Source: a virus
Virus record (IMG/VR): IMGVR_UViG_3300024260_000049
Coordinates: 1 to 25,733 of that record
Reading direction: 5' to 3' (one strand)
Length of the DNA stretch: 25,733 bases
Position numbers and translations under genes: made by a program. The notes beneath the pieces were generated by a model. The model saw only the letters and a program-made list of their open reading frames with translations, was not told the DNA's origin and did no database searches. Of this stretch, positions 6,878 through 23,523 are shown piece by piece (positions within the stretch are counted from its first letter, which is position 1; each line of letters opens with the position of its first letter).

Positions 6878-7807
6878 TTATTTTCTTATTTTTACCATTT
6901 TACTAGTAAAATTGTAATTTCCTAATACTTCAACTAATTCATCCATTTTAAAGTTTGAATCATCAAGTACTTTCTCATTTATCTTATCAAAATTTACATC
7001 TATCTTTTTATCACTTGTTATTAAAATATACATTTCATTAATGGTATGACCTGTATTGTTATTAACAACAATATATTTCGAATTATTTGGATAACTATTT
7101 GTAACTACATTATGTGCAATTACTCCTACTTTTCCAGTATCTTCAACTGTTAAAAGTGTTCTGTATTTCTGATGACTACTAAACTTAAAAATTAATCTTT
7201 GTCCATTGTGTAATACTTTAGGAACAACTAATCTTGAATCACCGTCTTGTCTTGATAATAAGTCAGAAACATCATTATTAGATAGCATAACTGAGCAATC
7301 TTTATTTGATGATATATAATAACTATTACTTTGTCTATATATATTTAAAGATGCATTATAACCTAAAAAGTTATACATCTGTTTACCGAATTTAGTATTA
7401 TTTAAATAACTAATTTCACCTTCAACTTTAGTACATGAAGCTAACGCTCTTGCACCTTTAATGTTAAGATACTCTACTTTAGAATACCAAACATCATCAA
7501 GTTTTTCAATTTTTATAATATTCGAACCGTTTAAAGTAAGACTTGAAATAGCTGAAATATTTGAACTACTTTCGTGAACTGCATTAGAATCATCATATGA
7601 TTTAAATTCTGATTCTATGTGAACACTAATCGTTTCAATAATTTCTTTTCTTGCTATATTTATAGCCTCTTGTCTTTTTGGACTTTCACCAAAACCAGTA
7701 AGAACATTAACATTCGAATTAGTAACTTTTAAGAACCACTCAGGTTGAGTAGCACCAAAAGCACTTAATTCTAAACACATTATGATAGCCAGTATAACTC
7801 TTTTCAT
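6878..7807 (-). CDS. secreted LPP20/DUF4384-like protein, 309 aa
   Basis: Residues 1-19 form a classic signal peptide (MKRVILAIIMCLELSAFGA) with an AxA-like signal peptidase I site; the Cys at 11 is not in a good lipobox. Residues about 23-120 resemble the LPP20 domain of Campylobacterota envelope proteins (PEWFLKVTN, then LTGFGES, AINIARKEIIETISVHI, and a Ser-rich stretch before VWYSKVEYLN). Residues about 160-250 look like DUF4384 (DCSVMLSNNDVSDLL, VLHNGQRLIFKF, LLTVEDTGKVGVIAHN). An exported envelope protein in a phage replication-type operon is unusual and suggests capture from the host, perhaps altering the cell surface. Family recognition is from memory. Confidence 0.7.
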   Translation of the reverse strand: MKRVILAIIMCLELSAFGATQPEWFLKVTNSNVNVLTGFGESPKRQEAINIARKEIIETISVHIESEFKSYDDSNAVHESSSNISAISSLTLNGSNIIKIEKLDDVWYSKVEYLNIKGARALASCTKVEGEISYLNNTKFGKQMYNFLGYNASLNIYRQSNSYYISSNKDCSVMLSNNDVSDLLSRQDGDSRLVVPKVLHNGQRLIFKFSSHQKYRTLLTVEDTGKVGVIAHNVVTNSYPNNSKYIVVNNNTGHTINEMYILITSDKKIDVNFDKINEKVLDDSNFKMDELVEVLGNYNFTSKMVKIRK

Positions 7808-7823
7808 AACTTATCCCTTTAAT

Positions 7824-9077
7824 TTAAAATTTACTTAGACCAATTAAATATTTAGCTTCTATTTGGTCTAATGTAATGTTTGGCTTATTGTCAATAACTA
7901 TACGTTTAGCATAGCTTCCTGCAATAGCATACTTATCTGCTACATCATAATATCTTTCAATGACTTCAAGCTTTGAGGCTTCATAATCAAATCCCGAATT
8001 ATATCCTGTAACTTTAACCCACATACGAGCACCATACTTATGAATAAATTGATAATCATGTGTATTAAATCTTAATGGGATATCTAGGCCCAAATCTTTA
8101 ATTTCTGAATCAATATAAAATCTTGCATTAACAACACCCGCATCGTTTAATTCAAAATCTTTTAATTTAACTCCAATTGGATTAATAGCGGATTTTGCTA
8201 TATATCCTCTGATTGCGAAATTTCTTGAATCGACCGGAGCTGAATCACTATTACCAAATGCATAATGAAAATTAACATATTTCATATCAATCATAAATTT
8301 AGTATTTGATACTTTTGGGGTACTTCTTCTAACACCAGACTTTTCACCTTTGCGAACTCTGATTTTAGCAGCTGTTGTTTTGATATTCATTGATTGAATT
8401 TTTTCAACTACATCATCAAATGTATATAAACCATCTAAAGATTTAAATTCTAAACCTTTTGATGTGTTCTTTACAACTAGTCCAAAATGCTTGCAATCTA
8501 CTTTATTACGTTCATCTTGGTCTTTTGTTTCAACCATATAAGTTGTTAGCCCGATAAGCTTATGATTATCCAACCATACTCTTCTTGCACTAATTTTCTT
8601 ATACAGCCTTCGATGCTTTAAAGTTCGTACTACTTCATCTTCTGTTGGAAATCTCCAAAGCTTTTTAATAGTACTAAGACTCTTATCTGATTTAACTTCA
8701 CCTTGTGATGCTAATTCCATAAGTTCATTTGCTTCAACTAGACCAATGTTATTAACATTGCACCAATCATTTGCAGCTTTAAGTCTATCAATTTGCCATC
8801 TCATACCACTAATAATTTCTGTAATTCCATAAAATTTATCATATGGTTCGTGATGATCATAAGATATTCTAACATTTGGTGGTTCTTTAAAAGTCTCCAT
8901 ATCATTTATTAAAACACTTAAATGTTTTTTTAAATTACTTCGATACTCTCGAACTATATAATTAACCGCTGCTGAATTATCGAAATTGTTATTTACGAAA
9001 GATTTTACTCTTTCTAGTTCCTCTTCAATAATACTAATAGTTTTATTCATTGTATTGTTACCTGTATTTGTATTCAT
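7824..9077 (-). CDS. hypothetical protein, 417 aa
   Basis: The frame is open from an ATG at 9104, but the ATG at 9077 is better: AAGGAAATTAAG precedes it and it avoids most overlap with the previous gene. The start MNTNTGNNTMNKTISIIEEE is followed by a helical N-terminal half (residues 10-170) with a PYDKFYGITEIISGMRW segment. The C-terminal half is beta-rich (ARFYIDSEIKDLGLDIPL, GARMWVKVTGYNSGFDYEA), perhaps an OB-like fold. That would fit a nucleic-acid-binding protein, but it is only a visual impression. Function unknown. Confidence 0.7.
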   Translation of the reverse strand: MNTNTGNNTMNKTISIIEEELERVKSFVNNNFDNSAAVNYIVREYRSNLKKHLSVLINDMETFKEPPNVRISYDHHEPYDKFYGITEIISGMRWQIDRLKAANDWCNVNNIGLVEANELMELASQGEVKSDKSLSTIKKLWRFPTEDEVVRTLKHRRLYKKISARRVWLDNHKLIGLTTYMVETKDQDERNKVDCKHFGLVVKNTSKGLEFKSLDGLYTFDDVVEKIQSMNIKTTAAKIRVRKGEKSGVRRSTPKVSNTKFMIDMKYVNFHYAFGNSDSAPVDSRNFAIRGYIAKSAINPIGVKLKDFELNDAGVVNARFYIDSEIKDLGLDIPLRFNTHDYQFIHKYGARMWVKVTGYNSGFDYEASKLEVIERYYDVADKYAIAGSYAKRIVIDNKPNITLDQIEAKYLIGLSKF

Positions 9078-9833: not shown

Positions 9834-10023
9834 TTACAATTCTATTATATCGTCGTCGATATAATCACCACTTCTCTTTGATTCCGTTGTATACTTACGC
9901 GGCAAAAATCATCTGCTTTAGTACATATATAATTTTACCATCTATACAATGAGTATTTATTACACTCCAGTATCCATCTTTAACTAACTTATTTGCTTCT
10001 TCTAATAATTCTTCACGTAACAT
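9834..10023 (-). pseudogene. frame-broken small hypothetical gene
   Basis: An intact 42-codon piece (10023-9895, MLREELLEEANKLVKDGYWS...) stops just after a TTTTT run. In another frame the sequence continues as LPRKYTTESKRSGDYIDDDI... to a stop at 9834, immediately before the next gene's ribosome site. The joined product of about 62 residues looks natural, so one or two single-base changes have broken it. The 42-aa form alone could also be made. Confidence 0.55.
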
Positions 10024-10186
10024 TATTTAATACCTTTAATATTTTTAACATAGAAATAACAATGTTATTTCCCTAATGTTTAAATAAAATTTAGCTTTTC
10101 TCTATAAGCTAATTTTAAATCCTGAGCAATAATATTTTATGCTCTTTATGTACCTCTTTCTGGGCTTTGTACGTCTTCCCAATATA

Positions 10187-10203
10187 GTTATTTCTATGGT
10201 AAC
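10187..10203 (-). promoter_or_regulatory. promoter-like motif, perfect copy
   Basis: On the minus strand it reads GTTACCATAGAAATAAC, the full consensus repeated at 11902-11918. It lies just after the terminator-like hairpin at 10242-10271 and upstream of the minus-strand genes from 10023. Candidate phage promoter or operator. Confidence 0.5.
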
Positions 10204-10241
10204 TTTATTAATTTCTCAATTAAAAAATGCGGAAAAATGCA

Positions 10242-10271
10242 TCTTTTCTTGAAATTAAAGACAAGAAAAGA
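10242..10271 (-). terminator. hairpin after the 10280-10804 gene
   Basis: A 10-bp stem (tcttttcttg / caagaaaaga) with a 10-nt loop. It is followed on the minus strand by TGCATTTTTCC and further T runs. A second 8-bp stem (tataaagg/cctttata, 10272-10292) overlaps the stop codon. Together these are a plausible transcript end. Confidence 0.5.
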
Positions 10272-10279
10272 TATAAAGG

Positions 10280-10804
10280 TTATCCCTTTATATCAAATAT
10301 CTTACCAAATCCTTTGGGTTCTGGTAAGCCTAAAGCTTCTTTTAGTTCTTCATCTATCATCATACGATCCATTTTCATTTTCATCGTATTCAATTTCTTA
10401 GTATATAATTGTATACCTTCAGTTAAAACGGTAAGAGATTTTATATTTTCTTGCTTCTCACTGTTTAATATATCAACAGTTTCTAATAAAGCATTGTGCT
10501 TTTCAACCATTTTTTTACGGTCATCTAAGCACTTTTTCTTCTCTTCTGTCAAGAAACATTGACTCAATTTTAGCTGAGTTACAGCATCTAATAGTTGATA
10601 AACGTATTGTATATCAACATATTCTTTTGTGATTCCTTGCTCTTTTGCTTCGGTTACTGCTTCAATTACTTGCTCTAATGATTTTTTCTTAGACATATTA
10701 ATGTCCTCCATAATTAAAAAATAACTTCGATCTTCTGATGTTATTTTATTGTTCTGTATTGTTGTTGGTTTACACCATGCTAATACACTATTTTTTCCAG
10801 TCAT
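10280..10804 (-). CDS. helical coiled-coil hypothetical protein, 174 aa
   Basis: I prefer the ATG at 10804 (AAAGAGGTCAGTA upstream). The GTG at 10876 has no ribosome site and would put the conserved motif at 10832-10849 inside the gene. A strong alternative is the ATG at 10696 (TGGAGGACATTAAT upstream), giving 138 residues starting MSKKKSLEQVIEAVTEAKEQ. The product is largely helical with coiled-coil character (KKKCLDDRKKMVEKHNALLE) and a Met/Lys-rich C-terminus (NTMKMKMDRMMIDEELKEAL). It resembles small scaffold or head-associated proteins in texture only; function unknown. Confidence 0.65.
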   Translation of the reverse strand: MTGKNSVLAWCKPTTIQNNKITSEDRSYFLIMEDINMSKKKSLEQVIEAVTEAKEQGITKEYVDIQYVYQLLDAVTQLKLSQCFLTEEKKKCLDDRKKMVEKHNALLETVDILNSEKQENIKSLTVLTEGIQLYTKKLNTMKMKMDRMMIDEELKEALGLPEPKGFGKIFDIKG

Positions 10805-10831
10805 TACTGACCTCTTTGTTTTATCTAATGT

Positions 10832-10849
10832 ATTAATTTCTATGGTAAC
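10832..10849 (-). promoter_or_regulatory. promoter-like motif upstream of the 10280-10804 gene
   Basis: Reads GTTACCATAGAAATTAAT on the minus strand, 28 nt before the chosen start codon and just after the hairpin at 10882-10900. The order terminator, motif, ribosome site, gene is the best single argument that the motif is a promoter. Confidence 0.55.
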
Positions 10850-10881
10850 TGTTTGTATTTCTCCGAAAAAAGCCACAAGAA

Positions 10882-10900
10882 AGGACCCAAAAAAGGTCCT
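10882..10900 (-). terminator. hairpin after the 10905-11570 gene
   Basis: AGGACC, a T-rich 7-nt loop, GGTCCT, then TTTCTTG on the minus strand, starting 4 nt after the stop codon. A short stem with a weak T tail; candidate intrinsic terminator. Confidence 0.5.
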
Positions 10901-10904
10901 AATA

Positions 10905-11570
10905 TTACAAAATATTTTGTAAATCTTCAGTTAAATATATCTTAAATAGTTTTTTAAGATTTTCAGATCCTGAATTTTGTATAATACTTTTGTAATAATC
11001 TAATAGTTTAGATTTATTATCCATTGATGCATCTAATAGGTTTAGCATATCACTGAACTTATTTTTCTTCTTTTCATTGGTAATTGTATCTTCTATATCA
11101 GTCATCATTGTGTTAAATGATTGATATTGCTTTTGAGAATTTTCTATTTGATCGCATATTTTTTGTTGAGTGTTATCACTTAACTGTTCTAATGCATCAT
11201 GTAGTCCTTCCACATTTTCCTTTTCTAAATACTCTTTCATATAAATATATGGTAATGTATTCATTACAAATCTTGCTATATTCTTTACAAAAGCAAGTTT
11301 TATACGATATGGTTCGTTTTCGATATCAGCAATGTCGATAGCTAAGTACATGTTTAAATCTTCAACCATTTTTTTAATGTAATCATTAAAAAAGTTATTA
11401 AATTCAGTCTTATACATATTATCAAGATCTTCTTCGAATACTAACCAATTAAAGCCACGTATTTGAAATTTTGATATTTGATCTACTACGTCCTGCATAT
11501 AATATAAATTACTTTCTTCTTGTTCATTATTGATTGTTAATCCGTCTACCGGTTGTTTTACTTTTAACAT
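10905..11570 (-). CDS. hypothetical helical protein, 221 aa, first gene of the leftward unit
   Basis: Starts MLKVKQPVDGLTINNEQEES with ATG at 11570. Nearly all helical and acidic, with aromatic-rich helices (FNNFFNDYIKKMVEDLNMYL) and a Lys-rich turn (NEKKKNKFSDML). No motif identifies it. It is the first leftward gene from the divergent region. A variant of the promoter-like motif sits 39 nt upstream and a hairpin follows the stop, so it may be a single-gene transcript. Confidence 0.7.
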   Translation of the reverse strand: MLKVKQPVDGLTINNEQEESNLYYMQDVVDQISKFQIRGFNWLVFEEDLDNMYKTEFNNFFNDYIKKMVEDLNMYLAIDIADIENEPYRIKLAFVKNIARFVMNTLPYIYMKEYLEKENVEGLHDALEQLSDNTQQKICDQIENSQKQYQSFNTMMTDIEDTITNEKKKNKFSDMLNLLDASMDNKSKLLDYYKSIIQNSGSENLKKLFKIYLTEDLQNIL

Positions 11571-11608
11571 TTCTAGCCCTTATTGTCTTACAATTTCTTA
11601 TACTTACT

Positions 11609-11622
11609 ATTTCTATCTTAAC
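11609..11622 (-). promoter_or_regulatory. variant promoter-like motif upstream of the 10905-11570 gene
   Basis: Reads GTTAAGATAGAAAT on the minus strand, differing from GTTACCATAGAAAT at two adjacent bases, and is followed by AGTAAGTATAAG. It lies 39 nt before the ATG, similar to the spacing at 10832-10849. Confidence 0.5.
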
Positions 11623-11870
11623 TTTAAATTATCTTTAAAGATCAAAATAAAACTTTACTGTACTGGCATTAGCTACTATTTATTAATATGTATTCGCTTT
11701 AATGATATATGCATCAGTAATTTTTTCGTCTGTTGTTAGCATATCAATTTGATACTAAGTATCTATTAATACGCTTTCACGTATCAATTTGACCCGCTTT
11801 CAAAATCCTTACTTATCCGCTCCTCGAAATTAATCGATTTACATCCTAGTCTTGTTTTATTAATCTATTT

Positions 11871-11918
11871 ATTTCTATGGTAACTAATGGTATTTCCCAG
11901 AGTTACCATAGAAATAAC
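11871..11918. repeat. inverted pair of the GTTACCATAGAAAT motif
   Basis: atttctatggtaac at 11871-11884 faces gttaccatagaaat at 11902-11915 across a 17-bp spacer. The pair could fire transcription in both directions, bind a dimeric protein, or form a hairpin. Confidence 0.8.
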
Positions 11919-11949
11919 ATATAAAAATCCATAAGAAAGAGTATTTATA

Positions 11950-11988
11950 CTTTTTATTTTATCTTTTTATTTTATCTTTTTATTTTAT
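11950..11988. repeat. three tandem AT-rich 13-mers (possible DNA-unwinding element)
   Basis: ctttttattttat is repeated perfectly at 11950, 11963 and 11976. Three tandem AT-rich 13-mers recall the unwinding element of bacterial origins; the sequence is not the same as in E. coli and the resemblance is one of layout. Confidence 0.85.
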
Positions 11989-12003
11989 TATCTAAAAAGA
12001 TAA

Positions 12004-12107
12004 CGATCTTTTAGGGTAGAAAAATAAGTTACCATAGAAATCTTTTACTTTTATTTCTATGGTAACTTTTCTACCCTAAAAGATCGCAACTTCTACCCTA
12101 AAAGATC
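12004..12107. repeat. large inverted repeat plus a direct repeat copy
   Basis: Arms 12004-12041 and 12053-12086 are complementary over about 34 bp, with four extra bases (ataa) in the left arm and an 11-bp spacer. Each arm combines two modules: gatcttttagggtagaa and gttaccatagaaat. The first module occurs again as a direct copy at 12091-12107 (ttctaccctaaaagatc), 22 bp after 12069-12085. It could act as a protein-binding array, bidirectional promoter, or cruciform/origin structure. Confidence 0.85.
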
Positions 12108-12135
12108 ATAATTTCTATCCTTGTCGCTATTTAAA

Positions 12136-12149
12136 TTTAACATAGAAAT
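12136..12149 (+). promoter_or_regulatory. degenerate promoter-like motif before the rightward operon
   Basis: tttaacatagaaat followed by tatatctataaataaa, 64 nt upstream of the ATG at 12213, in plus orientation. It keeps the ATAGAAAT core of the repeated motif. A full-consensus plus-strand copy lies further up at 12028-12041. Confidence 0.4.
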
Positions 12150-12212
12150 TATATCTATAAATAAATTTACTAGAACAAATGTATAGTAATTCAAAAACCA
12201 AAAAGGTAAAAA

Positions 12213-13187
12213 ATGCGCAAAAAAGAATATAACGTTAAGATTCCGGTTATAAGTATAACAACTAGTAATGAAGTAATCAAACAAGAAACAATTGTTATAC
12301 AAGAGCACGATGCTCTTGTTAAATATAAAATGTTAAGTATTAATAATTTCGGAGAAGGTACTGTCCACTGTCCTGGTTATTTTAATAACAAAACTAATTT
12401 TATTATAGGTGAACAGAATTCCTTATTATCTGTTAATCGTAAAGTTGAGGTACTTGTAAAAAATACTTCTGAATTAATTGATTCAGATATGTATATGCTT
12501 TATCCTATTCCATGTTTTAGCATGGAACAAAGTTTAATTTTAGACTATACAACCAAAGAAGGAACTACTTATGAAATTCCTTTAACTTTCGAATTAGGAA
12601 AATTATTTGGTAGATTTTTAGTGAATGATAATATTCAATTTGATGGTATACCAGACGGGTTTATAAACTTATTTGTAAATCGTAAAAATGGTACTTCGCT
12701 TAATAAGAATTTACTTATTAATTCTAATGCTGATTTTGTGTTAGGTATACTACAAGGGTATTATAAAGAAGTAGGTGAAAGAGGATTTTATATATTACCA
12801 AATGTTAATATATATACTATAAGTACTATTCTAAATTATCTTGGATCAAGTTATTCTATTAGAAATTCTAAGAATAACTCAAAGAAAGTTTATATGCAAT
12901 TGCCTACAATTTTTAAAGATAGATGTGGTCCGTTATTTTATAAAAAAGATCAATTTGTAGTTACATCTGCTGGTCTTGTAAAAGTATCACATTTCGGTGA
13001 TCATGAATCATATATGTTAGAATCTAAAAATGATTTAGAAGAAAAGATTAATTTAGGTACAATTTTAGCTATTCCATATAATTCTATAAGCTTTGTAGAA
13101 AGTCTTGATAATAGAGTATATGATTTAACTGCTGAACGAGGTGATGCTACAAATTATGCTATGAACTTTACACCGTTTTTAAAAAAT
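12213..13187 (+). other. C-intein coding part (residues 1-325)
   Basis: Intein half ending with Asn325, followed by Ser326 as the +1 nucleophile. Together with the 44-residue N-half at 17651-17782 it totals 369 residues, a normal size for an intein with an endonuclease domain. That domain seems inactive, because both LAGLIDADG motifs are degenerate. Confidence 0.7.
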
Positions 13188-13358
13188 TCAGATGGTGATA
13201 TTTTAGCGGCTTCTGGTATTTTTACAAAAGAAGGTTTAGCTGATGCTCAAGTATTTAGTCCTGATTCGAAAGAATATTACAAAGATTTAAACGAAGGTAA
13301 AATCAATCAGTGGATTGCTGATGATGCGATTCTTGGTCTATATAACTCAACAAAATAA
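12213..13358 (+). CDS. C-intein fused to the DGD segment of phage RNA polymerase beta'
   Basis: The 381-residue protein reads as two parts. Residues 1-325 look like the larger half of an intein: a first degenerate LAGLIDADG motif (ELGKLFGRFLVNDN, 127-140), a second (FVLGILQGYYKEVG, 175-188, lacking the catalytic acid), block F (VYDLTAERG, 302-310), and block G ending FTPFLKN325. The usual block B TxxH appears as GEQN and the penultimate His is Lys, so chemistry may be slow or altered. Residues 326-381 match RNA polymerase beta' starting inside the active site: SDGDILAAS, LADAQ, then DDAILGLYNST, with nearly the spacing of DFDGDQMAV...QDVVLGLYYMT in E. coli. It starts at ATG behind AAAAAGGT. 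The partner half is 16526-17785. A free-standing decayed intein is the alternative. Confidence 0.8.
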   Translation: MRKKEYNVKIPVISITTSNEVIKQETIVIQEHDALVKYKMLSINNFGEGTVHCPGYFNNKTNFIIGEQNSLLSVNRKVEVLVKNTSELIDSDMYMLYPIPCFSMEQSLILDYTTKEGTTYEIPLTFELGKLFGRFLVNDNIQFDGIPDGFINLFVNRKNGTSLNKNLLINSNADFVLGILQGYYKEVGERGFYILPNVNIYTISTILNYLGSSYSIRNSKNNSKKVYMQLPTIFKDRCGPLFYKKDQFVVTSAGLVKVSHFGDHESYMLESKNDLEEKINLGTILAIPYNSISFVESLDNRVYDLTAERGDATNYAMNFTPFLKNSDGDILAASGIFTKEGLADAQVFSPDSKEYYKDLNEGKINQWIADDAILGLYNSTK

Positions 13359-13380: not shown

Positions 13381-16300
13381 ATGAATACAACAATAATAAA
13401 TGAAACAACAAACGGACAGGTTTTCTCAACAGCACCATCTTTAAATGGTTCTGTTAATTGGAAAGATAGAATTAAAGTAAACGACATCAGGGAATACTGG
13501 TTATCTTCAGTTGGAAAAGAACTTCTTCAAGAAGATGAAACTGTTCGTATTACTGCTGTTCTCCCATGGGAAAAGAATGGTAAGCTTGTAGATAGTCAAA
13601 TTACTATACATGAACAAGTTAGAAGTGCGGATGAATTTATCGCACTTATGGAAAAGAAGTATGCTGGTATTAGAGACAATGAATGGAAACGTTTAGTTGG
13701 TTGGTCTATGTCTTCTGCAACATTCCAATATCAAACTCCAGGTGCGGATGGGAAACCAATTGCTCCTAGTAAGAGTTCAGTAAGAACTCTTGAGAGTTTT
13801 GTTATAGATATGGATGCTCATACTGAAAAAGAAAAGGGCTCTAGGTTTCATTTCAACTCATATAATGATAATTCAAGAAGATTAATTGCTGCGATTGCCG
13901 TTAATAAAATAAACAAAATATTTAAAACACTTAATATGGATTTAATTCTAAAGCCATTAAAAGCATATGCTACTGGTGGTGGTTTACAATTCATTGTAAA
14001 ATTTACTCGTCCTATTTTAGCAAACGAAGCTGATAAAATATTCTTACATATTAAGTCTGCTGCTAAAACAATGAAAGATCGTATTAATATTTACGGTCTT
14101 GATGCTTTATCTAATATAGAAACTTGTTTCTTGGACTTTGATGTTTCATCAACGGATATTGCACATACACAACGTGTTTCTGGTACAGTTAATCCTAAAA
14201 GTGGATACCTCGGAAGTTTTGCTGAAGAGATTCGTGATTTATATGATGAATCTAAGATAGATGCAGCTAAGGCTGAAATGCTTGAAGCATTAGATGATAG
14301 CGTTTTTCAAGATGAGACTATTGATGGTCTTAGAAAATTTTATCATGCTCAAGTAGTTAAATTTAAAGAATTATTTAAAGATCGTAAAGTACAAGATGAA
14401 AAAGGTAATAATAAATTAGACGCGTTTGGTAATACTATTCCAATTTCATGGGATATAGTTCCTGATGCTGTAATGCATAGTGCTACTATATTAAAGCATG
14501 TTGATGATACATTTAGAGATGGTGATAAATCACTTTGGGCCAATTATCAAGATTATGATATACTTAAAGATGTTTCTAGTGCTGATCAAGCTAAATTTAT
14601 GGGAAGCTTTCTTAATATAAATGAAGCTGCTACAACTGCTAGATATGTTTCTTATCATTGTCCATTTCACCCAGAACAAGATCCAAGTTTTGCAATATAC
14701 ACCAATGCTGACGCACCTGTTGCATATGCAAAAGACTTTCATGATGGTGGTGAAATTTATAATGCTATTACTTTTCTTATGGCACTTCAAAAGATTACAC
14801 GTACAGAAGCAATACATAAATTTGCTTTAGCTTTTGGTATTCAATTAAAAGCTGCGGTTCGTAAAGAATTTGGTAAAGAAGAAACAAGTAACGAAGTTAT
14901 GAAACTAATTAGTGAAATAGATACTGAAAATTTTGTATACTATCGTTTAGCTAATAAGAACAGAGCTTGTATTATTAGAGAATTTGAACAAGGTGAAGCT
15001 TATACATTTGATGGAACTAAAATGATGTCAGATCATATCTTACTTCATCAACTTGGTAAAGTTGGAGCAGATAAAGAACTTAGAGCAGTATTCCATGAGA
15101 AGTTTGAAGAACGGGTTTTAATTAATGCATTTGAAGAATTTAATCCGGGTAAGCCACATCAGTACACAAAAGGTTTTATTAAATATATTAACCTTTGGAT
15201 TCCAGGTAAAGCCTATTTAAAAATACATGAAATGTCTGAAGTAATTGATCAAATGGATATTAAAAGTGCATTAGGTCTTATTAAAAATAGACTTCCTGTT
15301 ATGGATTTTTATTTACATCAGATTACACAAAAGGGTTCAATTGAATATCTAATTAACTGGTTAATTAACACTGCACACTTTAATCGTATGAGTACTCTTC
15401 CTGTTATTACTACAGTTCAAGGTACAGGTAAAGGTGTATTTGTAACTAATGTTCTTGAGCATTACTTAAATCATAAATATGTTAATGTTGTTACATCTGA
15501 AAAGATTTCAAGTAACTTCAATGCATTTATGGAACAAAGTTCTTTAATCGTTCTTGATGAAGGTGATTTTTCTAAATCACATGAAGTTGATAATCTTAAA
15601 CTTCTTACTGGTAATGAATTTATTCAGGTTGAAAAGAAAGGTATTGATTCGCAAAAAATGCGTAGACATTTTAATTTATTAATGCTTACAAATGGAGAAA
15701 CACCTTTAATTCATCCATCTAATGATAGACGTATGACATACTTTCGTGGTGATGTTACTCTACTTGATTCTATTGAGCATGCTGGTTTTGATACTATTGA
15801 TAATTTTATACTTGCTGTTAAAGAAGAAGTAGATGAATTTTGGGCTATTCTTTTAAAGACAACTCCTAAACCTGAATGGAATAATGCTAATCTTAAAGAC
15901 AATCAATTTAACAAACAAATACTTTTAATGCATCCTTTTGGAAAACTTATTATTAAAATGATTGAAAATGAATGGAATGAGATTAAACTACAAATATCTG
16001 AAAACATTGATGATAATGTTGTAATTGCAGCGAATCTTGAAATGGTATCAAATATACAAAAAGCTTTTGAATCAACAGGTACTGTAGATTTAACACTGAT
16101 TAATAAATACATTAAAAGTTTACCATTTAAATCGTTTGTTTCTGTACAACAATTTATCAAAAGCAATGCTTTACATAAAAATGGTATTGAAATTCAAAAT
16201 ACTGGTACAGCTGTTCTTTTACATATAAACAAGTATAAACTTAAAGAACTTATTAAAATGGAGAACAATCTAGGTAAATTATTTGATTGTTATAATTCAG

Positions 16301-16476
16301 AGAATCTTGACAATACTCTTAATGATGTAAATTCACATCATGATCTGGATAATGATGGTCATGTTGCTGATATATTAGAAGATGTTGGTTTAGCTCCAAT
16401 TAATAATACAGATCCATTAAATTTATCTCCGATAGCTCCAGGTGTTCCTGCTGCTCCCTCAACAATCATGCAGTAA
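13381..16476 (+). CDS. phage primase-helicase, 1031 aa
   Basis: A fused enzyme to lay primers and unwind DNA at the fork. N-terminal part: an archaeo-eukaryotic-type primase core with VIDMDAH (Asp143, Asp145 as metal ligands) and ATGGGLQF (about 197-204). A zinc-finger-like stretch follows (YHCPFHPEQDPSF, Cys427/His430), as in CHC2-type primase parts. C-terminal part: a superfamily 3/DUF5906-like helicase with Walker A QGTGKG (G681-G685, Lys684), Walker B LIVLDEGD (Asp726, Glu727), sensor MLTNGE (Asn771) and an arginine-finger candidate NDRRM (783-784). The last 70 residues are acidic, then Pro/Ala-rich and disordered, perhaps a docking tail. It lies between the two split-intein beta' genes in the same operon, with an AATAAGG ribosome site. 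The domain calls rest on motifs; the exact primase subfamily is uncertain. Confidence 0.85.
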   Translation: MNTTIINETTNGQVFSTAPSLNGSVNWKDRIKVNDIREYWLSSVGKELLQEDETVRITAVLPWEKNGKLVDSQITIHEQVRSADEFIALMEKKYAGIRDNEWKRLVGWSMSSATFQYQTPGADGKPIAPSKSSVRTLESFVIDMDAHTEKEKGSRFHFNSYNDNSRRLIAAIAVNKINKIFKTLNMDLILKPLKAYATGGGLQFIVKFTRPILANEADKIFLHIKSAAKTMKDRINIYGLDALSNIETCFLDFDVSSTDIAHTQRVSGTVNPKSGYLGSFAEEIRDLYDESKIDAAKAEMLEALDDSVFQDETIDGLRKFYHAQVVKFKELFKDRKVQDEKGNNKLDAFGNTIPISWDIVPDAVMHSATILKHVDDTFRDGDKSLWANYQDYDILKDVSSADQAKFMGSFLNINEAATTARYVSYHCPFHPEQDPSFAIYTNADAPVAYAKDFHDGGEIYNAITFLMALQKITRTEAIHKFALAFGIQLKAAVRKEFGKEETSNEVMKLISEIDTENFVYYRLANKNRACIIREFEQGEAYTFDGTKMMSDHILLHQLGKVGADKELRAVFHEKFEERVLINAFEEFNPGKPHQYTKGFIKYINLWIPGKAYLKIHEMSEVIDQMDIKSALGLIKNRLPVMDFYLHQITQKGSIEYLINWLINTAHFNRMSTLPVITTVQGTGKGVFVTNVLEHYLNHKYVNVVTSEKISSNFNAFMEQSSLIVLDEGDFSKSHEVDNLKLLTGNEFIQVEKKGIDSQKMRRHFNLLMLTNGETPLIHPSNDRRMTYFRGDVTLLDSIEHAGFDTIDNFILAVKEEVDEFWAILLKTTPKPEWNNANLKDNQFNKQILLMHPFGKLIIKMIENEWNEIKLQISENIDDNVVIAANLEMVSNIQKAFESTGTVDLTLINKYIKSLPFKSFVSVQQFIKSNALHKNGIEIQNTGTAVLLHINKYKLKELIKMENNLGKLFDCYNSENLDNTLNDVNSHHDLDNDGHVADILEDVGLAPINNTDPLNLSPIAPGVPAAPSTIMQ

Positions 16477-16525
16477 GTTTCCTGCGTGATTAACAAATAT
16501 TTATATATTATCGAAGGACTAGTCA

Positions 16526-17785
16526 ATGTTAAAAGTTTTAAACATAAATAACTTTATTAAAACAAATAAAGTACAAGAAGTAACCAATCGTCAATCCTTT
16601 ACAAAGGAAGGTAAACCAACGACTGATGGTTTATATTCAGAAACTATTTTTGGTATTACTTCTGATGAGATTAGTACAAATTTTGCTTATATCAATCTTA
16701 GTACTTGGATTATACATCCAAGTATATTGGGTTCTTTAACAAAAGTTAGTACTCTTTTCAAAAAAGTTATCTATGGTGATAAAAAAGCCGTTATTGAAAA
16801 TGGCATGTTAGTAGAATCTGAAAATGGTTCTAGTGGTGTAGGTTTTTTATTCAATTCTTGGAATAAACTAGATTTTAAAAATTACCTCACTGAAAAAAAT
16901 AAACCTGTTGTAAACTTCTTTCAAACTATTGCAAGAGATGAAGTTTTTATAAATAAATATTTAGTTGTTCCACCAAAGTTTAGAATGTATACACAAAAAC
17001 ATGGTATAACAGTAGAAGATGAAATAACTATGTTTTATAAGAGACTTTTGGGTTTAACAGTAATTGGTTCTGCTGATAATGATCTTATGCAAGCTATTTT
17101 AAAAAATTCAAATAAAGATTTAGAAATTCAAAAAGCTGTTATTATTATATATGACTTTTTTCTTTCTAAATTAGAAAAGAAAGAAGGACAATTTAGAAGT
17201 TCTTTAATTTCTAAACGTATTGATAATAATGTTAGATTAGTTGCAAATGCTCGACCTGATTTACCTTTCAATTGTGCTGGATTACCTTGGCATGTTCTTT
17301 TAAATATATTTGATGCTTTTATAGTTGGAAGTTTAAATAAAAATATATTCTCAGAAGACTATAGTAAAGCATTAGGTGTTGAACAATTTAGTTCATCTAA
17401 ATTTGGTACACACTTTGATTATATATTTAGAAATGTAGATACATATACGGAAGCTAATCCTGGTAAAAGGGAAATATGGGTTAAAGTTTTAAAAGAAATG
17501 TTTGATTATCATCCTGAGTTAAAGGTATTGTTAAAGCGGGATCCTGCTTGGAATAAGGATAGTTATCATGCACTATTTCCTGTTATAATCCCTACTAATT
17601 CGTTTCATATTGTAGTTAATTCATTACTATATAAACCACTTGGTGGTGATAGTTTTAATACTAACTTTACAACTGGTGTTAAAGATAATTGTATTTGTCA
17701 AGACGAAGATGGGTACATTAGTACTAAATCTGATCAATCTTACTATATAAGAAGTTTAAACTATTTATTTGATAATTTAGGATGA
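16526..17785 (+). CDS. RNA polymerase beta' N-terminal part ending in an N-intein
   Basis: Phage-type RNA polymerase beta', first segment. Matches to bacterial beta': DGLYSETIFG (34-43, as DGLFCARIFG), IHPSILGSL region, RLVANARPDLPFNCAGLPW (237-255, double-psi barrel strand), and KRDPAWNKDSYHALFPVII (337-355, as NRAPTLHRLGIQAFEPVLI). The N-terminal zinc ribbon is missing, as usual in jumbo-phage enzymes. The match runs to KPLGGD375, the position of the first catalytic Asp (NAD of NADFDGD), and breaks there. Residues 376-419 (SFNTNFTTGVKDNCICQDED and on to SLNYLFDNLG) are not polymerase and fit a short N-intein with Ser1. The DGD half of the loop is encoded at 13188. GAAGGAC precedes the ATG. 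Its stop is 4 nt before a homing endonuclease gene. Confidence 0.85.
   Translation: MLKVLNINNFIKTNKVQEVTNRQSFTKEGKPTTDGLYSETIFGITSDEISTNFAYINLSTWIIHPSILGSLTKVSTLFKKVIYGDKKAVIENGMLVESENGSSGVGFLFNSWNKLDFKNYLTEKNKPVVNFFQTIARDEVFINKYLVVPPKFRMYTQKHGITVEDEITMFYKRLLGLTVIGSADNDLMQAILKNSNKDLEIQKAVIIIYDFFLSKLEKKEGQFRSSLISKRIDNNVRLVANARPDLPFNCAGLPWHVLLNIFDAFIVGSLNKNIFSEDYSKALGVEQFSSSKFGTHFDYIFRNVDTYTEANPGKREIWVKVLKEMFDYHPELKVLLKRDPAWNKDSYHALFPVIIPTNSFHIVVNSLLYKPLGGDSFNTNFTTGVKDNCICQDEDGYISTKSDQSYYIRSLNYLFDNLG
17651..17782 (+). other. N-intein coding part (44 residues)
   Basis: Starts with the Ser codon after Asp375 and ends at the gene's stop. A 44-residue N-half ending after a SLNYLFD-type N2 block fits the atypical split inteins that have short N-fragments. 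The start is chosen because joining Asp375 to Ser326 of the partner gives D-S-D-G-D. Cys389 is an alternative intein start but leaves 13 extra residues in the loop. Confidence 0.65.
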
Positions 17786-17789
17786 TAAG

Positions 17790-19229
17790 ATGTTATACCA
17801 AGAAATTTTTTATAATTTAGATAAAGTGTTTGTCGGAAAATCATTAAGAGTATCATCTAACCCAGACAATAAACAAAAAGAATTGGTATATGAAATAACT
17901 AAAAGATACCCAATATTAAAAGATGATTTTAAAATTAGATGTTACATAATTAAAAATGGTATACTGATTGATAGTTTACTTTGCAAAAATTGCAAAGTAA
18001 ACTATGTCAAATTTAATTCTCCATCAAAAGGTTTTGCTACTTATTGTTCTCCAAAATGCGCTAATACATCTGATGAATTTATAGAATCTTCAAAAAAAAC
18101 ATGTATGTTGAAATACGGACACGAATTCAGTTTTGCTAGTCAAGTAATTAAAAATAAAAAGACAAGTACATTAATTAAAAAATTTGATACTTTAAATAGT
18201 GAATTTTTAACAGATAAAAATTTTATAATAAAAAATTTTATAATCAATGACTTTTTTAATGCTAAAGAATTTATGTTATATTTTAATTGTAGTCAGGGAA
18301 CTGCTTATAAAACTATTAATGATTTGAAAATTAATTATAAAAAAAGAAGAGGAAATAGTGAAGCTGAATTTGAGATAATGAAATTTATAGAAGAATCCAC
18401 TATTCAAGGGGATCGTAGTTTAGGAATTGAATTAGATATTCTATCTAATGATTTCGCAATTGAATATAATGGTTTAATGTTTCATTCTTTTGGTATATCA
18501 AAATATACAATGTTTAATAATTATGAATTAGAATCAAAAAATAAAAATAAGCATTTATTAAAAACAAAAATTGTTGAATCTAATAATTTACAATTATTTC
18601 ATATATTTGAGAATGAATGGAATAATAAGAAAGAAATATGGAAAAGTGTAATTAATTCAAAAATGGGAAGAACTACTAAAATATTTGCAAGAAAATGTAT
18701 AATAAAAGAAGTAGATTCTAAAACTTCAAAATGGTTTTTGGATAATAATCATTTACAAGGCAATAGATATTCTAAAATCAATTATGGTCTTTATTATAAT
18801 GATGAATTAGTTAGCTTAATGACATTTGGTTCACCAAATAATTCAAAATCTTTTGAGTATGAATTAATAAGATTTTGTTCAAAATTAAATTATACTATTG
18901 TCGGTGGAGCTTCAAAATTATTAAAACATTTTGAAAAGATAATTAAACCTAAAAGTTTAGTAACATATGCGAATAAAAGATGGAGTTTAGGAAATCTTTA
19001 TAAAACCATTGGGTTTACATTTTCACATGAATCTAATCCAAATTATTTTTATTTCAAAGAAGACGATGATATTTTATTTTCAAGAAATAAATTTCAGAAA
19101 CATAAATTATCAAAATTATTAGAGAATTTTGATAATAATTTAACGGAGACAATTAATATGTATAATAATAATTATAGAAAAATATATGACAGTGGTAATT
19201 TAGTTTTTTATAAGGAATATATAAAATGA
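17790..19229 (+). CDS. homing endonuclease (zinc finger, HTH, Vsr-like nuclease), 479 aa
   Basis: Domains in order: an N-terminal Cys4 finger (LLCKNCK ... YCSPKC, about 65-92); a helix-turn-helix-like stretch (FMLYFNCSQGTAYKTINDLK, about 155-175); and a PD-(D/E)XK/Vsr-like nuclease (about 185-275, with GIELDIL, FAIEYNGLMFHS and LLKTKIVESNNLQLFHIFEN). Last comes a conserved C-terminal domain (NNHLQG, YGLYYNDELVSLMTFG, IVGGASKLLKHFEK, YANKRWSLGNLYKTIGF). It is a paralogue of 21307-22851. It sits 4 nt after the beta' N-part and overlaps the next endonuclease by ATGA, so no intron surrounds it. It is AT-richer than its neighbours. It probably cleaves the polymerase gene of a rival phage. Confidence 0.8.
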   Translation: MLYQEIFYNLDKVFVGKSLRVSSNPDNKQKELVYEITKRYPILKDDFKIRCYIIKNGILIDSLLCKNCKVNYVKFNSPSKGFATYCSPKCANTSDEFIESSKKTCMLKYGHEFSFASQVIKNKKTSTLIKKFDTLNSEFLTDKNFIIKNFIINDFFNAKEFMLYFNCSQGTAYKTINDLKINYKKRRGNSEAEFEIMKFIEESTIQGDRSLGIELDILSNDFAIEYNGLMFHSFGISKYTMFNNYELESKNKNKHLLKTKIVESNNLQLFHIFENEWNNKKEIWKSVINSKMGRTTKIFARKCIIKEVDSKTSKWFLDNNHLQGNRYSKINYGLYYNDELVSLMTFGSPNNSKSFEYELIRFCSKLNYTIVGGASKLLKHFEKIIKPKSLVTYANKRWSLGNLYKTIGFTFSHESNPNYFYFKEDDDILFSRNKFQKHKLSKLLENFDNNLTETINMYNNNYRKIYDSGNLVFYKEYIK

Positions 19230-20122
19230 AAAAAAATGAACATTTTGATATAATTTTAAAATTCCAAGAAATTTTTCCATTATATAATTATTCAAATGTT
19301 AAATATAAAAATTATCATACTAAAGTTGATATAATATGTCCAATTCATGGATTATTTAAACAAAGCCCAAAAGCAATCATAAATCATAAAAATGGATGCG
19401 TACATTGTACTAAAAAAATAACAATATTAAATTTTAAAGATAAGTCAAATAATATACATGATAATAAATATGATTATTCAAAAGTTGAATTTATATCATC
19501 TACTATTAAAGTTGATATAATATGTCCAATTCATGGATTATTTAAACAAAAAATGACTAATCATATACATTATAATCAAGGTTGTCCAAAATGTTCTTCT
19601 ACTCATAAATCAAATATAAATTTATTTATCAAACGAGGAAATATAATTCATAATAATAAATATGATTATTCAAATGTTCTTTATATAAATTCAACAACAA
19701 AAGTTGATATAATATGTCCAATTCATGGATTATTTAAACAAATGCCTCAATCACATATTAATAAAAAAACTGGTTGTCCTGAATGCAATGAATCAAAAGG
19801 CGAAAAAATTATTAATAATTTTTTAATTGATAATAATATAATCTTTAAATCTCAAAAAAAATTTAAAGATTGTAAAAATAAAAATTCTTTACCTTTTGAT
19901 TTTTATTTAATAGATTATAATATTTTAATAGAATATGATGGAATTCAACATTTCCAACCAGTTGAATATTTTGGTGGTGAATTAAATTTTAAAATTATAC
20001 AACAAAATGATTTAATAAAAAATAATTATTGTAAAGATAAAAATATAAAACTTATAAGAATACCATATAATTGTGAATTAAATTATAAATTAGAGGAGAT
20101 CAAAAATGAACTTAAAATTTAA
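19226..20122 (+). CDS. homing endonuclease with three DUF723-like repeats, 298 aa
   Basis: Three copies of a Cys/His DNA-binding repeat (YS.V......KVDIICPIHGLFKQ....H....GC..C) occupy about residues 20-190. A Vsr/PD-(D/E)XK-like nuclease follows (SLPFDFYLIDYNILIEYDGI then QHFQPVEYFGG, about 230-255). It is a relative of 2959-3669, which has two repeats. Its start overlaps the previous endonuclease as ATGA. Its last 17 bases overlap the start of the beta' third segment, supplying that gene's GAGGAG ribosome site. The three repeat cores are identical at DNA level, suggesting recent duplication or gene conversion. Confidence 0.8.
   Translation: MKKNEHFDIILKFQEIFPLYNYSNVKYKNYHTKVDIICPIHGLFKQSPKAIINHKNGCVHCTKKITILNFKDKSNNIHDNKYDYSKVEFISSTIKVDIICPIHGLFKQKMTNHIHYNQGCPKCSSTHKSNINLFIKRGNIIHNNKYDYSNVLYINSTTKVDIICPIHGLFKQMPQSHINKKTGCPECNESKGEKIINNFLIDNNIIFKSQKKFKDCKNKNSLPFDFYLIDYNILIEYDGIQHFQPVEYFGGELNFKIIQQNDLIKNNYCKDKNIKLIRIPYNCELNYKLEEIKNELKI
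19322..19741 (+). repeat. three near-identical 40-bp repeat cores inside the endonuclease gene
   Basis: aaagttgatataatatgtcc and the following 20 or so bases recur at 19322, 19508 and 19700 (spacings 186 and 192, both multiples of 3). Each encodes KVDIICPIHGLFKQ. Flanking repeat parts are diverged, so the cores are either under strong constraint or recently homogenised. Confidence 0.9.
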
Positions 20123-21254
20123 TCAGGAGTTTGTATATCCTGAACATACAATTCGACCTATATGGGTTGAACAACGTTTATCTAAATTCTTTACTACTCT
20201 AAAGCAAGATACGGATAGAAATTTATCAAGTAAGATGCTTCAAGATGCTATTGTTGATAACTTAGAAGAAAACATACTTCATTCAAAAATTAAAATAAAG
20301 AAAGTACTTGATATAAAAGGTATTGAGGTTTTAATTCATAAATTGGATGAAGTTACTGAAAATGGTACTGAGTTTATGTGGTACTATTATTTACTAATGC
20401 AGGCAGGTTTTACGTTAAGTTCTGTAATACCAAGCTCTTTTCAACCGGAAGCTTTAGTTTTACCTAAACAATTCGTAAAAGAAAAGAATGAGCTTGTTAA
20501 AGTTTATCAAGATTCTAAAAAAACAACTGAAGATGCTTTAAAATTTCAAAAAGCAGTTACTAAAATTGCGGAGAAAGTAAAAGTATATTTTGAAGAAAAT
20601 AATATTGATGTTGTAGATTTAATGAATTCTGGTGCTAAGGGTAATGTTTCACATATTCAATCATTACTATTGTCTGTAGGTCTAAGTATTAACTCATTTG
20701 GTGAAATTAATGATGTTATTGATAATTCTCATTCAGAAGGTATGACACAGACACAATTTTTTAATGGTAGTTCACAAGCAATTCAAGCACTGTATGCTAA
20801 AAGTTCCGAGACATCTAAACCTGGATACCTAGGTCGTAAACTAGGTGCAATTACAGAACGTATTAAACTTAGTAAAATGCTAGATTGTGGTACTAAGAAT
20901 TATTTTGAATTAAAGATTCGTGATAAAGATATGCTAAAATCATTTGAAGGTCGTTATTATAAATCTAAAGCTGGTTTAGAACTTCAAATTGATAAAAATT
21001 CAGACATTGTTGGTGATGTTATTAAATTAAGAAGCCCTTTATTTTGTAAAGCAAAAGATGGAATATGTCAACGTTGTTATAATAAACAATACATAGATAG
21101 ATTACATCTTAAAACTGGAGATAATATTGGTCTAATGGCAAGTACTGGTTTAACTGGAAGTCTAGTTAACTTAACACTAAAAAAATCTCATGTTGGGGTT
21201 GGATTAGATAAAGCAAATGTTGATTTTAGAGAAGAAATTAAATCCTTATATTAA
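20106..21254 (+). CDS. RNA polymerase beta' third segment: F-loop, bridge helix, trigger-loop start
   Basis: The 382-residue protein aligns with bacterial beta' downstream of the catalytic loop. Rim-helix region: WYYYLLMQAGFTLSSVIP with LVLPKQFVKEKNELVKVYQD (as IPEKKHEII). F-loop: LMNSGAKGNVSHIQSLLLSV (172-191, as MADSGARGSAAQIRQLAG). Bridge helix: EGMTQTQFF ... YLGRKLGAITERI. Zinc site: Cys261 (LDCGT) and CKAKDGICQRC (Cys314, 321, 324), the full four. Trigger-loop first half: GDNIGLMASTGLTGSLVNLT then LKKSHVG, with Lys and His where E. coli has Arg933 and His936. It then ends 18 residues later, without the second trigger-loop helix or the beta' C-terminal region. GAGGAG precedes the ATG; a strong hairpin overlaps the stop. 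Confidence 0.9.
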   Translation: MNLKFNQEFVYPEHTIRPIWVEQRLSKFFTTLKQDTDRNLSSKMLQDAIVDNLEENILHSKIKIKKVLDIKGIEVLIHKLDEVTENGTEFMWYYYLLMQAGFTLSSVIPSSFQPEALVLPKQFVKEKNELVKVYQDSKKTTEDALKFQKAVTKIAEKVKVYFEENNIDVVDLMNSGAKGNVSHIQSLLLSVGLSINSFGEINDVIDNSHSEGMTQTQFFNGSSQAIQALYAKSSETSKPGYLGRKLGAITERIKLSKMLDCGTKNYFELKIRDKDMLKSFEGRYYKSKAGLELQIDKNSDIVGDVIKLRSPLFCKAKDGICQRCYNKQYIDRLHLKTGDNIGLMASTGLTGSLVNLTLKKSHVGVGLDKANVDFREEIKSLY

Positions 21255-21306: not shown

Positions 21307-22851
21307 ATGAACCTTAAACAAATTATAAATAAATATAGAAATAAAAAAGGAATTTGGTGGCCATCTTTACAAAAAGATATTGAATTTATAAAACATTTTG
21401 ACAATATTTATTCTTTTGCAAAAAATGAAAATGTTCAATTTAAAGCATATATAGTAGAACATGATTTAAATTATGATACGTGTAAATGTCCATCGCCTAA
21501 TTGTAATAATCTTAAAAGATTTAATAAAAATAAAAATAAATTTTTCGTTTATTGTTCAGATGAATGTAAATTAAAAAATGTTGGAAATAATATAAGTAAT
21601 TCTAAAAAAAACCTATCAAAAGTTGTAAATGAAAATATTCAAACAAAAAGAAGAAATACAAATCTTGAAAAATATGGATACACTGAACAATTTATAGGGT
21701 TAAAATCTCAAATAAAAAAAAATATACTTGATAAATATGGAGTAGATAATATTTTTAAAGATAAAGATTTTAAATTATCAAGAAAATCTAAAAATTATAA
21801 TAATCAAGAATTTAATTTACATTTAGATGAATGGTTAAGTTTTACCAGTGATGACTTTATTAAAAAATTTGGTTCTGAACCATATACTAAAGAAATTGCT
21901 AACTATTTTAATATATCATTAGATAGTGTAAGAAATAAATTACAAAAGTTAAATATAAAATATAAAAAACATTCTACATCTTTTGCTGAATCAGAGATAA
22001 TAGATTTTATAAACAATCCTGATACAATTCAAGGTGATAGAATATTAATTAATAAGGAACTTGATATTTTAGTTCCTAATAATTTTGCAATTGAATATCA
22101 TGGTTTAATGTTTCATAGTCACGGTATAAGCGATTATTCTATGTTCAATAACCCAATACCTGATATAAATAAACATCTCGTTAAAACTGATTTATGTGAA
22201 GATAAAAACATTCAGTTATTTCAAATATTTGAAAATGAATGGCAGATGATTCATCTACAAAATATATGGAAAAGCATTATTAATTCTAAATTAAATAATA
22301 CAAAAAAAATACATGCAAGAAAATGTGTAGTCAAAGAAGTTGATATCAAAGATTCAAAAATTTTCGAATCGAATAATCATTTGCAAGGAATTGGTAATTC
22401 AAGTATTAGATATGGGTTATATTATAAAGATGAACTTGTTAGTTTAATGACTTTTAAAAAAGATGTTAAATACCAATGGGAATTAAATAGGTTTTGTACA
22501 AAATTAAATAATACTATAGTTGGTGGCGCAAGTAAACTTTTAAAACATTTTGAACGAACAATTAATCCAAATACATTATTAAGTTATGCAAATAGAAGAT
22601 GGAGCACAGGAAATTTATATAAAACTATTGGTTTTATTCACTTGCATAATTCATCATCAAATTATTTTTATTTTCATAATGATGATAAATATAATTTAAA
22701 ATCTAGAGTAAACTTTCAAAAACATAAATTAGAAAATAAACTAAAATTATTTGATAAAACTTTATCTGAAACTAATAATATGTTTAATAATGGATATCGT
22801 AAAATTTACGATTCTGGTAATATGGTATTTTTAAAGACATATAACAAATAA
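21307..22851 (+). CDS. homing endonuclease (zinc finger, HTH, Vsr-like nuclease), 514 aa
   Basis: Paralogue of 17790-19229 with the same order of domains: Cys finger (CKCPSPNCNN ... YCSDEC), a repeat resembling NUMOD/intron-endonuclease DNA-binding modules (NLEKYGYTEQF, ILDKYGVDNIFKD), HTH-like region (EIANYFNISLDSVRNKLQKL), nuclease (KELDILVPNNFAIEYHGLMF, LCEDKNIQLFQIFENEW), and C-terminal domain (NNHLQG, YGLYYKDELVSLMTF, GGASKLLKHFER, YANRRWSTGNLYKTIGF). It has its own GAGGAG ribosome site after the hairpin of the beta' gene. Its position right after the prematurely ending beta' segment suggests that it marks another break of the polymerase gene. Confidence 0.8.
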   Translation: MNLKQIINKYRNKKGIWWPSLQKDIEFIKHFDNIYSFAKNENVQFKAYIVEHDLNYDTCKCPSPNCNNLKRFNKNKNKFFVYCSDECKLKNVGNNISNSKKNLSKVVNENIQTKRRNTNLEKYGYTEQFIGLKSQIKKNILDKYGVDNIFKDKDFKLSRKSKNYNNQEFNLHLDEWLSFTSDDFIKKFGSEPYTKEIANYFNISLDSVRNKLQKLNIKYKKHSTSFAESEIIDFINNPDTIQGDRILINKELDILVPNNFAIEYHGLMFHSHGISDYSMFNNPIPDINKHLVKTDLCEDKNIQLFQIFENEWQMIHLQNIWKSIINSKLNNTKKIHARKCVVKEVDIKDSKIFESNNHLQGIGNSSIRYGLYYKDELVSLMTFKKDVKYQWELNRFCTKLNNTIVGGASKLLKHFERTINPNTLLSYANRRWSTGNLYKTIGFIHLHNSSSNYFYFHNDDKYNLKSRVNFQKHKLENKLKLFDKTLSETNNMFNNGYRKIYDSGNMVFLKTYNK

Positions 22852-22879: not shown

Positions 22880-23179
22880 ATGGCTAAGAAAAAAGTAGAA
22901 GCAGTAGTTGAAGAAGTGGCTGAAGTGGTTGAAGAAGTAGAAGCAGTAGTTGAAGAAGTGGCTGAAGTAGTTGAAGAAGTGGCTGAAGTAGTTGAAGAAG
23001 TGGCTGAAGTAGTTGAAGAAGTTGAAGTAGTTGAAGAAGTAGTTGAAGAAGTTGAAGTAGCTGAAGTTGAGAAAACTTTTAGAGAACTTGGTAATACTGT
23101 AGTTGCTCGTAAAAGAGATTTACCTACATTAAAAGTAACATCTTCTGATAATATAGTTCGTTCAGGTTTCACAGTATAG
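22880..23179 (+). CDS. acidic Val/Glu-repeat protein, 99 aa
   Basis: AAAAAGGATTAGGA precedes the ATG. Residues 5-65 are almost only Glu, Val and Ala in a seven-residue pattern (VEEVAEV), encoded by an imperfect 21-bp DNA repeat. This predicts a very acidic helix or coiled coil. Residues 66-99 (TFRELGNTVVARKRDLPTLK...) are of normal composition and may be the functional end. Acidic repeat tails can act as linkers or DNA mimics; function unknown. The opposite strand is also open but is a shadow with no ribosome site. Confidence 0.7.
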   Translation: MAKKKVEAVVEEVAEVVEEVEAVVEEVAEVVEEVAEVVEEVAEVVEEVEVVEEVVEEVEVAEVEKTFRELGNTVVARKRDLPTLKVTSSDNIVRSGFTV

Positions 23180-23452: not shown

Positions 23453-23523
23453 ATTCTTGTGTTTAAAATCAAAGAATAATATTTAATTGATCTAACAAAT
23501 ACATATAATAAAAGGACAATTAA

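Follow-up and report, generated by a model that had tools for sequence, protein, structure and literature searches.

A repeated 14-bp word as a predicted early-type promoter of a multisubunit RNA polymerase in uncultivated phages

A 14-bp word, GTTACCATAGAAAT, recurs before genes in an uncultivated phage and in related contigs, and it is most likely an early-type promoter, predicted here, of one of the phage's multisubunit RNA polymerases. We refer to the motif with this core as P1 (looser form, RTTAnYATAGAAATAATA). P1 is probably read by the virion polymerase, which would switch on early genes, with a second word, P2, for late genes. The sequence directly displays recurrence, orientation, start-codon spacing, conservation in relatives, and a separate second class; from these we infer promoter activity, start site, timing, and the polymerase involved. 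Phages with multisubunit RNA polymerases offer one of the few models for promoter finding without a normal sigma factor, and to our knowledge their promoter words have been established experimentally in few cases. P1 and P2 probably represent the early and the late promoter of a distinct clade of uncultivated phages, with start sites predicted to ∼10 nt, and provide defined DNA targets for tests of recombinant phage polymerase; mirror-image pairs of P1 and a structured RNA linked to it are new leads. No paper containing the motif was found in the literature searched.

The window, which is the whole stretch of DNA analyzed (25,733 nt; positions 1 to 25,733 of IMG/VR virus record IMGVR_UViG_3300024260_000049), contained nine matches to GTTACCATAGAAATA with up to three mismatches, compared with a mean of 2.4 and a maximum of 6 in 100 shuffles. 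A previous sequence-only reading had listed six full copies and three variants and had seen no others in the window. All six proved exact for the 14-mer, and every match with up to three mismatches fell at 10044–12150. The variants at 11609–11622 and 12136–12149 were located correctly; the third, placed at 10047–10060, was off by 3 nt and lies at 10044–10057 (Table 1). Five of the nine copies point leftward and four rightward. The 14 unpaired exact copies yielded the extended form TTGRGAAATACAAATA-GTTACCATAGAAAT-AAATATATTARTAAA; ACCA is the commonest strong form, and the strong form contains ACCATAG. Copies had also been described 28–65 nt before start codons and, in two cases, directly after a terminator-like hairpin. 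The distances to the starts at 10804(-), 11570(-), and 12213(+) agree with this (Table 1), and hairpins at 10900–10882(-) and 10294–10270(-) lie upstream of the 10836 and 10190 copies, respectively.

Table 1. Positions of P1 and P2 sites, associated elements, and genes (window coordinates unless a relative is named)
Feature	Position	Strand	Remarks
P1 variant TTTAACATAGAAAT, reverse-oriented	10044-10057	+	just upstream of 42-aa ORF
P1 exact, extended form	10190-10203	-	equivalents G002 8447+, G004 9923+
P1 exact, extended form (GAGAAATACAAACA upstream)	10836-10849	-	31 nt before ATG 10804; equivalents G002 8007+, G004 9646+
P1 variant GTTAAGATAGAAAT	11609-11622	-	38 nt before gene 10905-11570
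P1 exact, extended form (GGGAAATACCATTA upstream)	11871-11884	-	no ORF of at least 20 aa directly behind
P1 exact	11902-11915	+	back-to-back with 11871-11884, 17 bp between
P1 exact, left arm of mirror-image pair	12028-12041	+	
P1 exact, right arm of mirror-image pair	12053-12066	-	spacer CTTTTACTTTT, 5-bp direct repeat
P1 variant TTTAACATAGAAAT	12136-12149	+	63 nt before gene 12213; equivalents G002 6963-, G004 8622-
Near-perfect palindrome, 84 bp, around facing pair	12004-12087	.	folds at -47 kcal/mol, z -11
Mirror-pair spacers	window 12042-12052; G002 7084-7094; G004 8717-8727		
Mirror-pair spacers, G001	135746-135755, 150836-150845, 176262-176271		
Structured RNA, ∼115 nt	G004 35126-35240 (L108:15226-15340); G002 36514-36628 (L103:16614-16728)		
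P2 TAACAAATA	16491-16499	+	26 nt before RNA polymerase beta-prime N-part gene
P2 TAACAAATA	22842-22850	+	29 nt before ORF 22880-23179; same arrangement G002 223-, G004 161-
P2 TAACAAATA	23493-23501	+	22 nt before endonuclease VII-like gene
Gene, function not recognized	10280-10804	-	behind P1 element
Conserved gene, function not recognized	10905-11570	-	62-63% identity in G002, G004; behind P1 element
Conserved gene, function not recognized	12213-13358	+	first gene of rightward primase/RNA polymerase cluster
Primase-helicase-like protein	13381-16476	+	
Phage RNA polymerase beta-prime, N-terminal part	16526-17785	+	
Phage RNA polymerase beta-prime, C-terminal part	20106-21254	+	best PDB match AR9 nvRNAP chain 7s00_D

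The P1 core, ATAGAAAT, was the top-enriched 8-mer 15–70 nt upstream of genes (23 of 170 genes, 16-fold), gene starts being our own uncurated ORF calls. Of its 137 copies, 26 lay outside genes of the same strand with a start on that strand no more than 60 nt downstream, where ∼5 were expected (permuted-word control, 3.4%; p about 1e-12). Most of these 26 were followed by a ribosome-binding site 6–43 nt after the motif and 6–9 nt before the start, and the P1 leaders were 13–55 nt long. Because ribosome-binding sites begin as near as 6–8 nt past the motif, the transcript would start close behind it, provided that these sites are in the message. Terminator-like stems of at least 6 bp were present within 30 nt before P1 in 12 of the 26 cases, compared with 26 of 142 control regions. 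The view that the motif does not resemble a sigma-70 promoter was borne out: with TTGACA and TATAAT required 16–18 nt apart, 9900–12300 held 13 weak sites versus 16.6 in shuffles. Genes preceded by P1 (n = 10) encode thymidylate synthase, a helicase, a radical SAM protein, a homing endonuclease, one unknown family, and terminase; ten genes were assigned per promoter class, a small sample in which four or five of each had no match. Terminase, behind a mirror-image pair, is the only virion function among the ten. Small genes also follow P1. The terminase gene is usually late, and its position behind a P1 pair speaks against the early class.

An IMG/VR scan with a 15-mer returned 85 exact stretches, most of them in viral contigs outside the clade and without the extended context; P1 enrichment was absent from 11 other contigs with one exact match each. 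With up to two mismatches, the motif matched 31 times in G001 (181,622 bp), 6 times in G002 (92,280 bp), and 12 times in G004 (84,234 bp), versus 4, 3, and 7 matches for the reversed word. G002 and G004 exceed the control only modestly, and there it is position bias that carries the case. Confinement to the 2-kb region, together with a lack of nearby transcript starts, had been named as favoring an origin iteron or repressor site; in this search beyond the window, relatives included, the motif was not so confined. Gene order in the window is shared by G002 and G004 (71–76% identity for the RNA polymerase parts and 51–59% for the primase). By gene order, G001 at its left end overlaps G002 at its right end; the contigs, all of them fragments like the window, therefore appear to derive from a clade of jumbo phages whose genomes would measure ∼270 kb. 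A DNA-level search among annotated phages gave no match, and relatives at the protein level (PBS1, AR9, MarsHill, and others) were distant (<60% identity). Viral contigs were also searched with single proteins and with profiles, and no clade members besides G002 and G004 emerged.

The arrangement of P1 at the divergent locus was conserved. The window, G002, and G004 each carry the motif before the homologue of gene 10905–11570 (ATAGAAAT 44 nt upstream in G002, at 7236+, and 20 nt upstream in G004, at 8847+), a mirror pair in mid-region, and the motif before the homologue of gene 12213–13358, and the order and orientation of P1 in this intergenic region are kept in both relatives. To its left in the window lie small genes without recognized function.

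The mid-region copies at 12028 and 12053 form a mirror-image pair (GTTACCATAGAAAT, 10–11 bp, ATTTCTATGGTAAC), which is retained at the same place in G002 (7070–7108) and G004 (8703–8741). Six good mirror pairs were found, spaced by 10 or 11 bp, and every spacer was a 5-bp direct repeat (CTTTT-A-CTTTT, ATTTG-T-ATTTG, CAATT-CAATT-C, AAAAT-AAAAT, ATTTT-ATTTT, and AAAAG-AAAAG) whose sequence varied from phage to phage. Shuffled spacers gave such a repeat with a probability of 0.003–0.11 each, or about 1e-9 jointly if independent, although this feature was singled out post hoc, and among pairs that are themselves related. A possible cause is slippage, with spacer length under selection. The pairs might constitute a distinct regulatory device, with facing polymerase sites one helical turn apart in a hairpin-capable palindrome (a two-way switch, loading site, or replication start not known in other phages), a suggestion that we regard as tentative and rather doubtful. 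Mirror-pair matches in bacterial genomes were chance occurrences or terminators, each solitary and with differing spacer lengths, and the Rfam matches to the window palindrome were microRNA-hairpin models far below threshold. The sequence CTACCCTAAAAGATC occurs three times in 12004–12109, twice as the outer arms of the palindrome and once as a further direct repeat.

In G002 and G004, a conserved RNA of ∼115 nt lies directly after P1 and ahead of RNA polymerase genes. Its predicted fold is rod-like, with 43 pairs, 7 of which have changed on both sides yet are kept. It had no match in Rfam, and its loop word occurs in other viral contigs without the same context. In the window, the P1 copy at 10190–10203(-) is followed by a non-coding stretch that ends in a terminator-like hairpin (∼10188–10080) and then by a 42-aa ORF (ATG 10023). 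A stretch similar to 10080–10188(-) is present at G002 8461–8570, the arms of the two reading, by eye, GTAC/GTAC and GTGC/GCAC; it is possibly a small RNA. Behind another extended P1 copy, 11690–11870(-) contains no ORF of at least 20 aa and has a modest fold z-score (-2.15), and it is possibly a non-coding RNA present in the window alone of the three syntenic phages. Reverse copies resembling the one at 10044–10057 occur at G001 1499 and G002 8592. In the RNA, a reverse copy might pair over a long range with a copy upstream of it, a tentative idea given that a terminator-like hairpin sits between them.

The second word, P2 (TAACAAATA; word AACAAATA), was enriched 15–70 nt before genes mainly in G001, with three further sites in the window. 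AACAAATA also precedes the homologous beta-prime N-part gene in G002 (2670-). Four of the ten G001 genes behind P2, a small sample, encode virion functions (tail sheath, major head protein, head protease, and head-tail adaptor). An EM-derived model of P2 drifted to AT-rich noise, and exact-word counts were used instead. Parts of RNA polymerase beta-prime are encoded in the window, G002, and G004, and G002 and G004 carry a second, fused beta-prime and also a beta part; either polymerase set may be incomplete. The window beta-prime matched both the non-virion (80 bits) and the virion (56 bits) beta-prime of AR9. Its gene lies behind P2; for the second beta-prime of G002 and G004, the preceding elements are a P1 site and the structured RNA.

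AR9 early promoters, AAATATATATTAT-(6N)-G, are read by the virion RNA polymerase (PMC5312081), and the late promoters, AACA-(6N)-TA/G, by the non-virion RNA polymerase (PMC5312081, PMC9209446). As a positive control, the same pipeline applied to AR9 ranked TATATTAT and ATATATTA, the known AR9 early promoter, first; therefore, the method recovers the known answer. ATAGAAAT was not enriched in AR9 (3 of 64 copies near starts). Like P1, the AR9 early promoters are a long conserved word tens of nucleotides before early genes, present dozens of times per genome in a phage with its own multisubunit RNA polymerases and a separate late class. P1 differs from them in sequence, with ACCATAG in its strong form, and in its mirror-image pairs, of which AR9 has none among 23 exact early motifs in 250 kb. 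A conserved G six nucleotides past P1 was not seen; the 7th nucleotide was A (0.38), T (0.38), or G (0.15). P2 shares AACA with the AR9 late promoters, the sites having been selected for it, and in the small sample assigned it stands before virion genes in 4 of 10 cases, whereas P1 does so only for the terminase; P2 differs in the fixed AAAT after AAC. TA or TG at N6 was only marginally enriched (10 of 20 P2 sites versus 14 of 52 inside genes, p = 0.058), so P2 is best described as AR9-like, short of proven identity to the AR9 late promoter. The early promoters of phiKZ and phiR1-37, compared by description, are also AT-rich conserved words before early operons that differ between phages (PMC7598289), and P1 resembles such jumbo-phage early promoters in being a conserved, repeated, transcription-oriented motif before presumed early operons.

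A promoter read by the phage's own polymerase, which the sequence-only reading had suggested, remains the best-fitting account: a multisubunit RNA polymerase is encoded, and the motif is scattered before genes in relatives. In the mechanism we propose, a phage multisubunit RNA polymerase, most likely carried in the virion, would recognize P1 just past the terminator of the preceding unit and begin RNA synthesis about 1–11 nt downstream of the final T of P1. The early genes turned on would be small host-takeover genes, those of DNA and nucleotide metabolism, and the primase/RNA polymerase cluster, and P2 would serve late virion genes via a second polymerase, after the AR9 strategy. Against a promoter stand the mirror pairs, back-to-back pairs, and reverse copies that do not face a nearby gene; the variant at 10044–10057(+) faces away from its neighbor and does not fit a simple promoter.

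Stoperators of mycobacteriophages such as L5 are asymmetric words of ∼13 bp, dispersed and oriented with transcription. P1 shares these traits (13–14 bp, scattered, near gene starts), and its mirror-image pairs resemble dimer sites, as might be expected of a dispersed operator whose many copies let a phage repressor or silencer block transcription. However, P1 sits at transcription-unit starts after terminators, where the interval between terminator-like stem and ribosome-binding site leaves scant room for another promoter; sigma-70-like sites fall below expectation in 9900–12300, no repressor or integrase was recognized among the window proteins searched (the genomes are incomplete), and an operator would not be expected to have one word for early and another for late genes. 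We consider an operator very improbable. A replication origin at 11870–12150, with the motif as iteron and the large palindrome as melting site, would suit the location between divergent gene blocks beside the primase gene, the 84-bp palindrome, and the mirror pair kept there in three phages. It leaves P1 outside the cluster unaccounted for; G001 has three good pairs and many single copies over 181 kb, and single copies show start-codon spacing. We give the origin very little credence. The promoter accounts better than either the operator or the iteron for the distances to start codons and for the division into early and late genes.

P1 might instead act in RNA, as a signal for processing or translation in the 5' leader of a transcript whose promoter lies farther upstream; predicted motifs are present in AR9 leaders (PMC5312081), and reverse-oriented copies, e.g. 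that at 10044, adjoin ribosome-binding sites. The extended copies in G002 and G004, however, lie just outside and 5' of the closing stem of the conserved RNA, as a promoter would, and upstream room behind the terminators is scant. We consider a leader signal highly unlikely. A role for P1 as a middle or continuous promoter of the newly made non-virion polymerase, reading an AR9-like AACA-N6-TA within TTTAACATAGAAATA, in which TAGAAA would be the fixed spacer, is unlikely but deserves more weight. The variants at 10044 and 12136 fit AACA-N6-T[A/T], the AR9 late consensus being AACA-(6N)-TA/G (PMC5312081), and P1 and P2 stand in tandem before some genes (G001 81161/81127, G002 6963/6942). Tested for AACA at -11 to -8 and TA/G at -1/+1, P1 did not conform, its commonest strong form being ACCA; furthermore, N6 is not conserved in AR9, and AACA is found in a class of its own, P2, ahead of virion genes. 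We favor the virion polymerase as the probable reader of P1.

Two other features of the window may be recorded. Homing endonuclease genes at 17790–20122 and 21307–22851 (+) lie beside and between the RNA polymerase gene parts, and related copies are numerous in G001, G002, and G004. A protein with an HDOD domain, a bacterial signaling domain (E 5.7e-31), is encoded at 24530–25327 (+).
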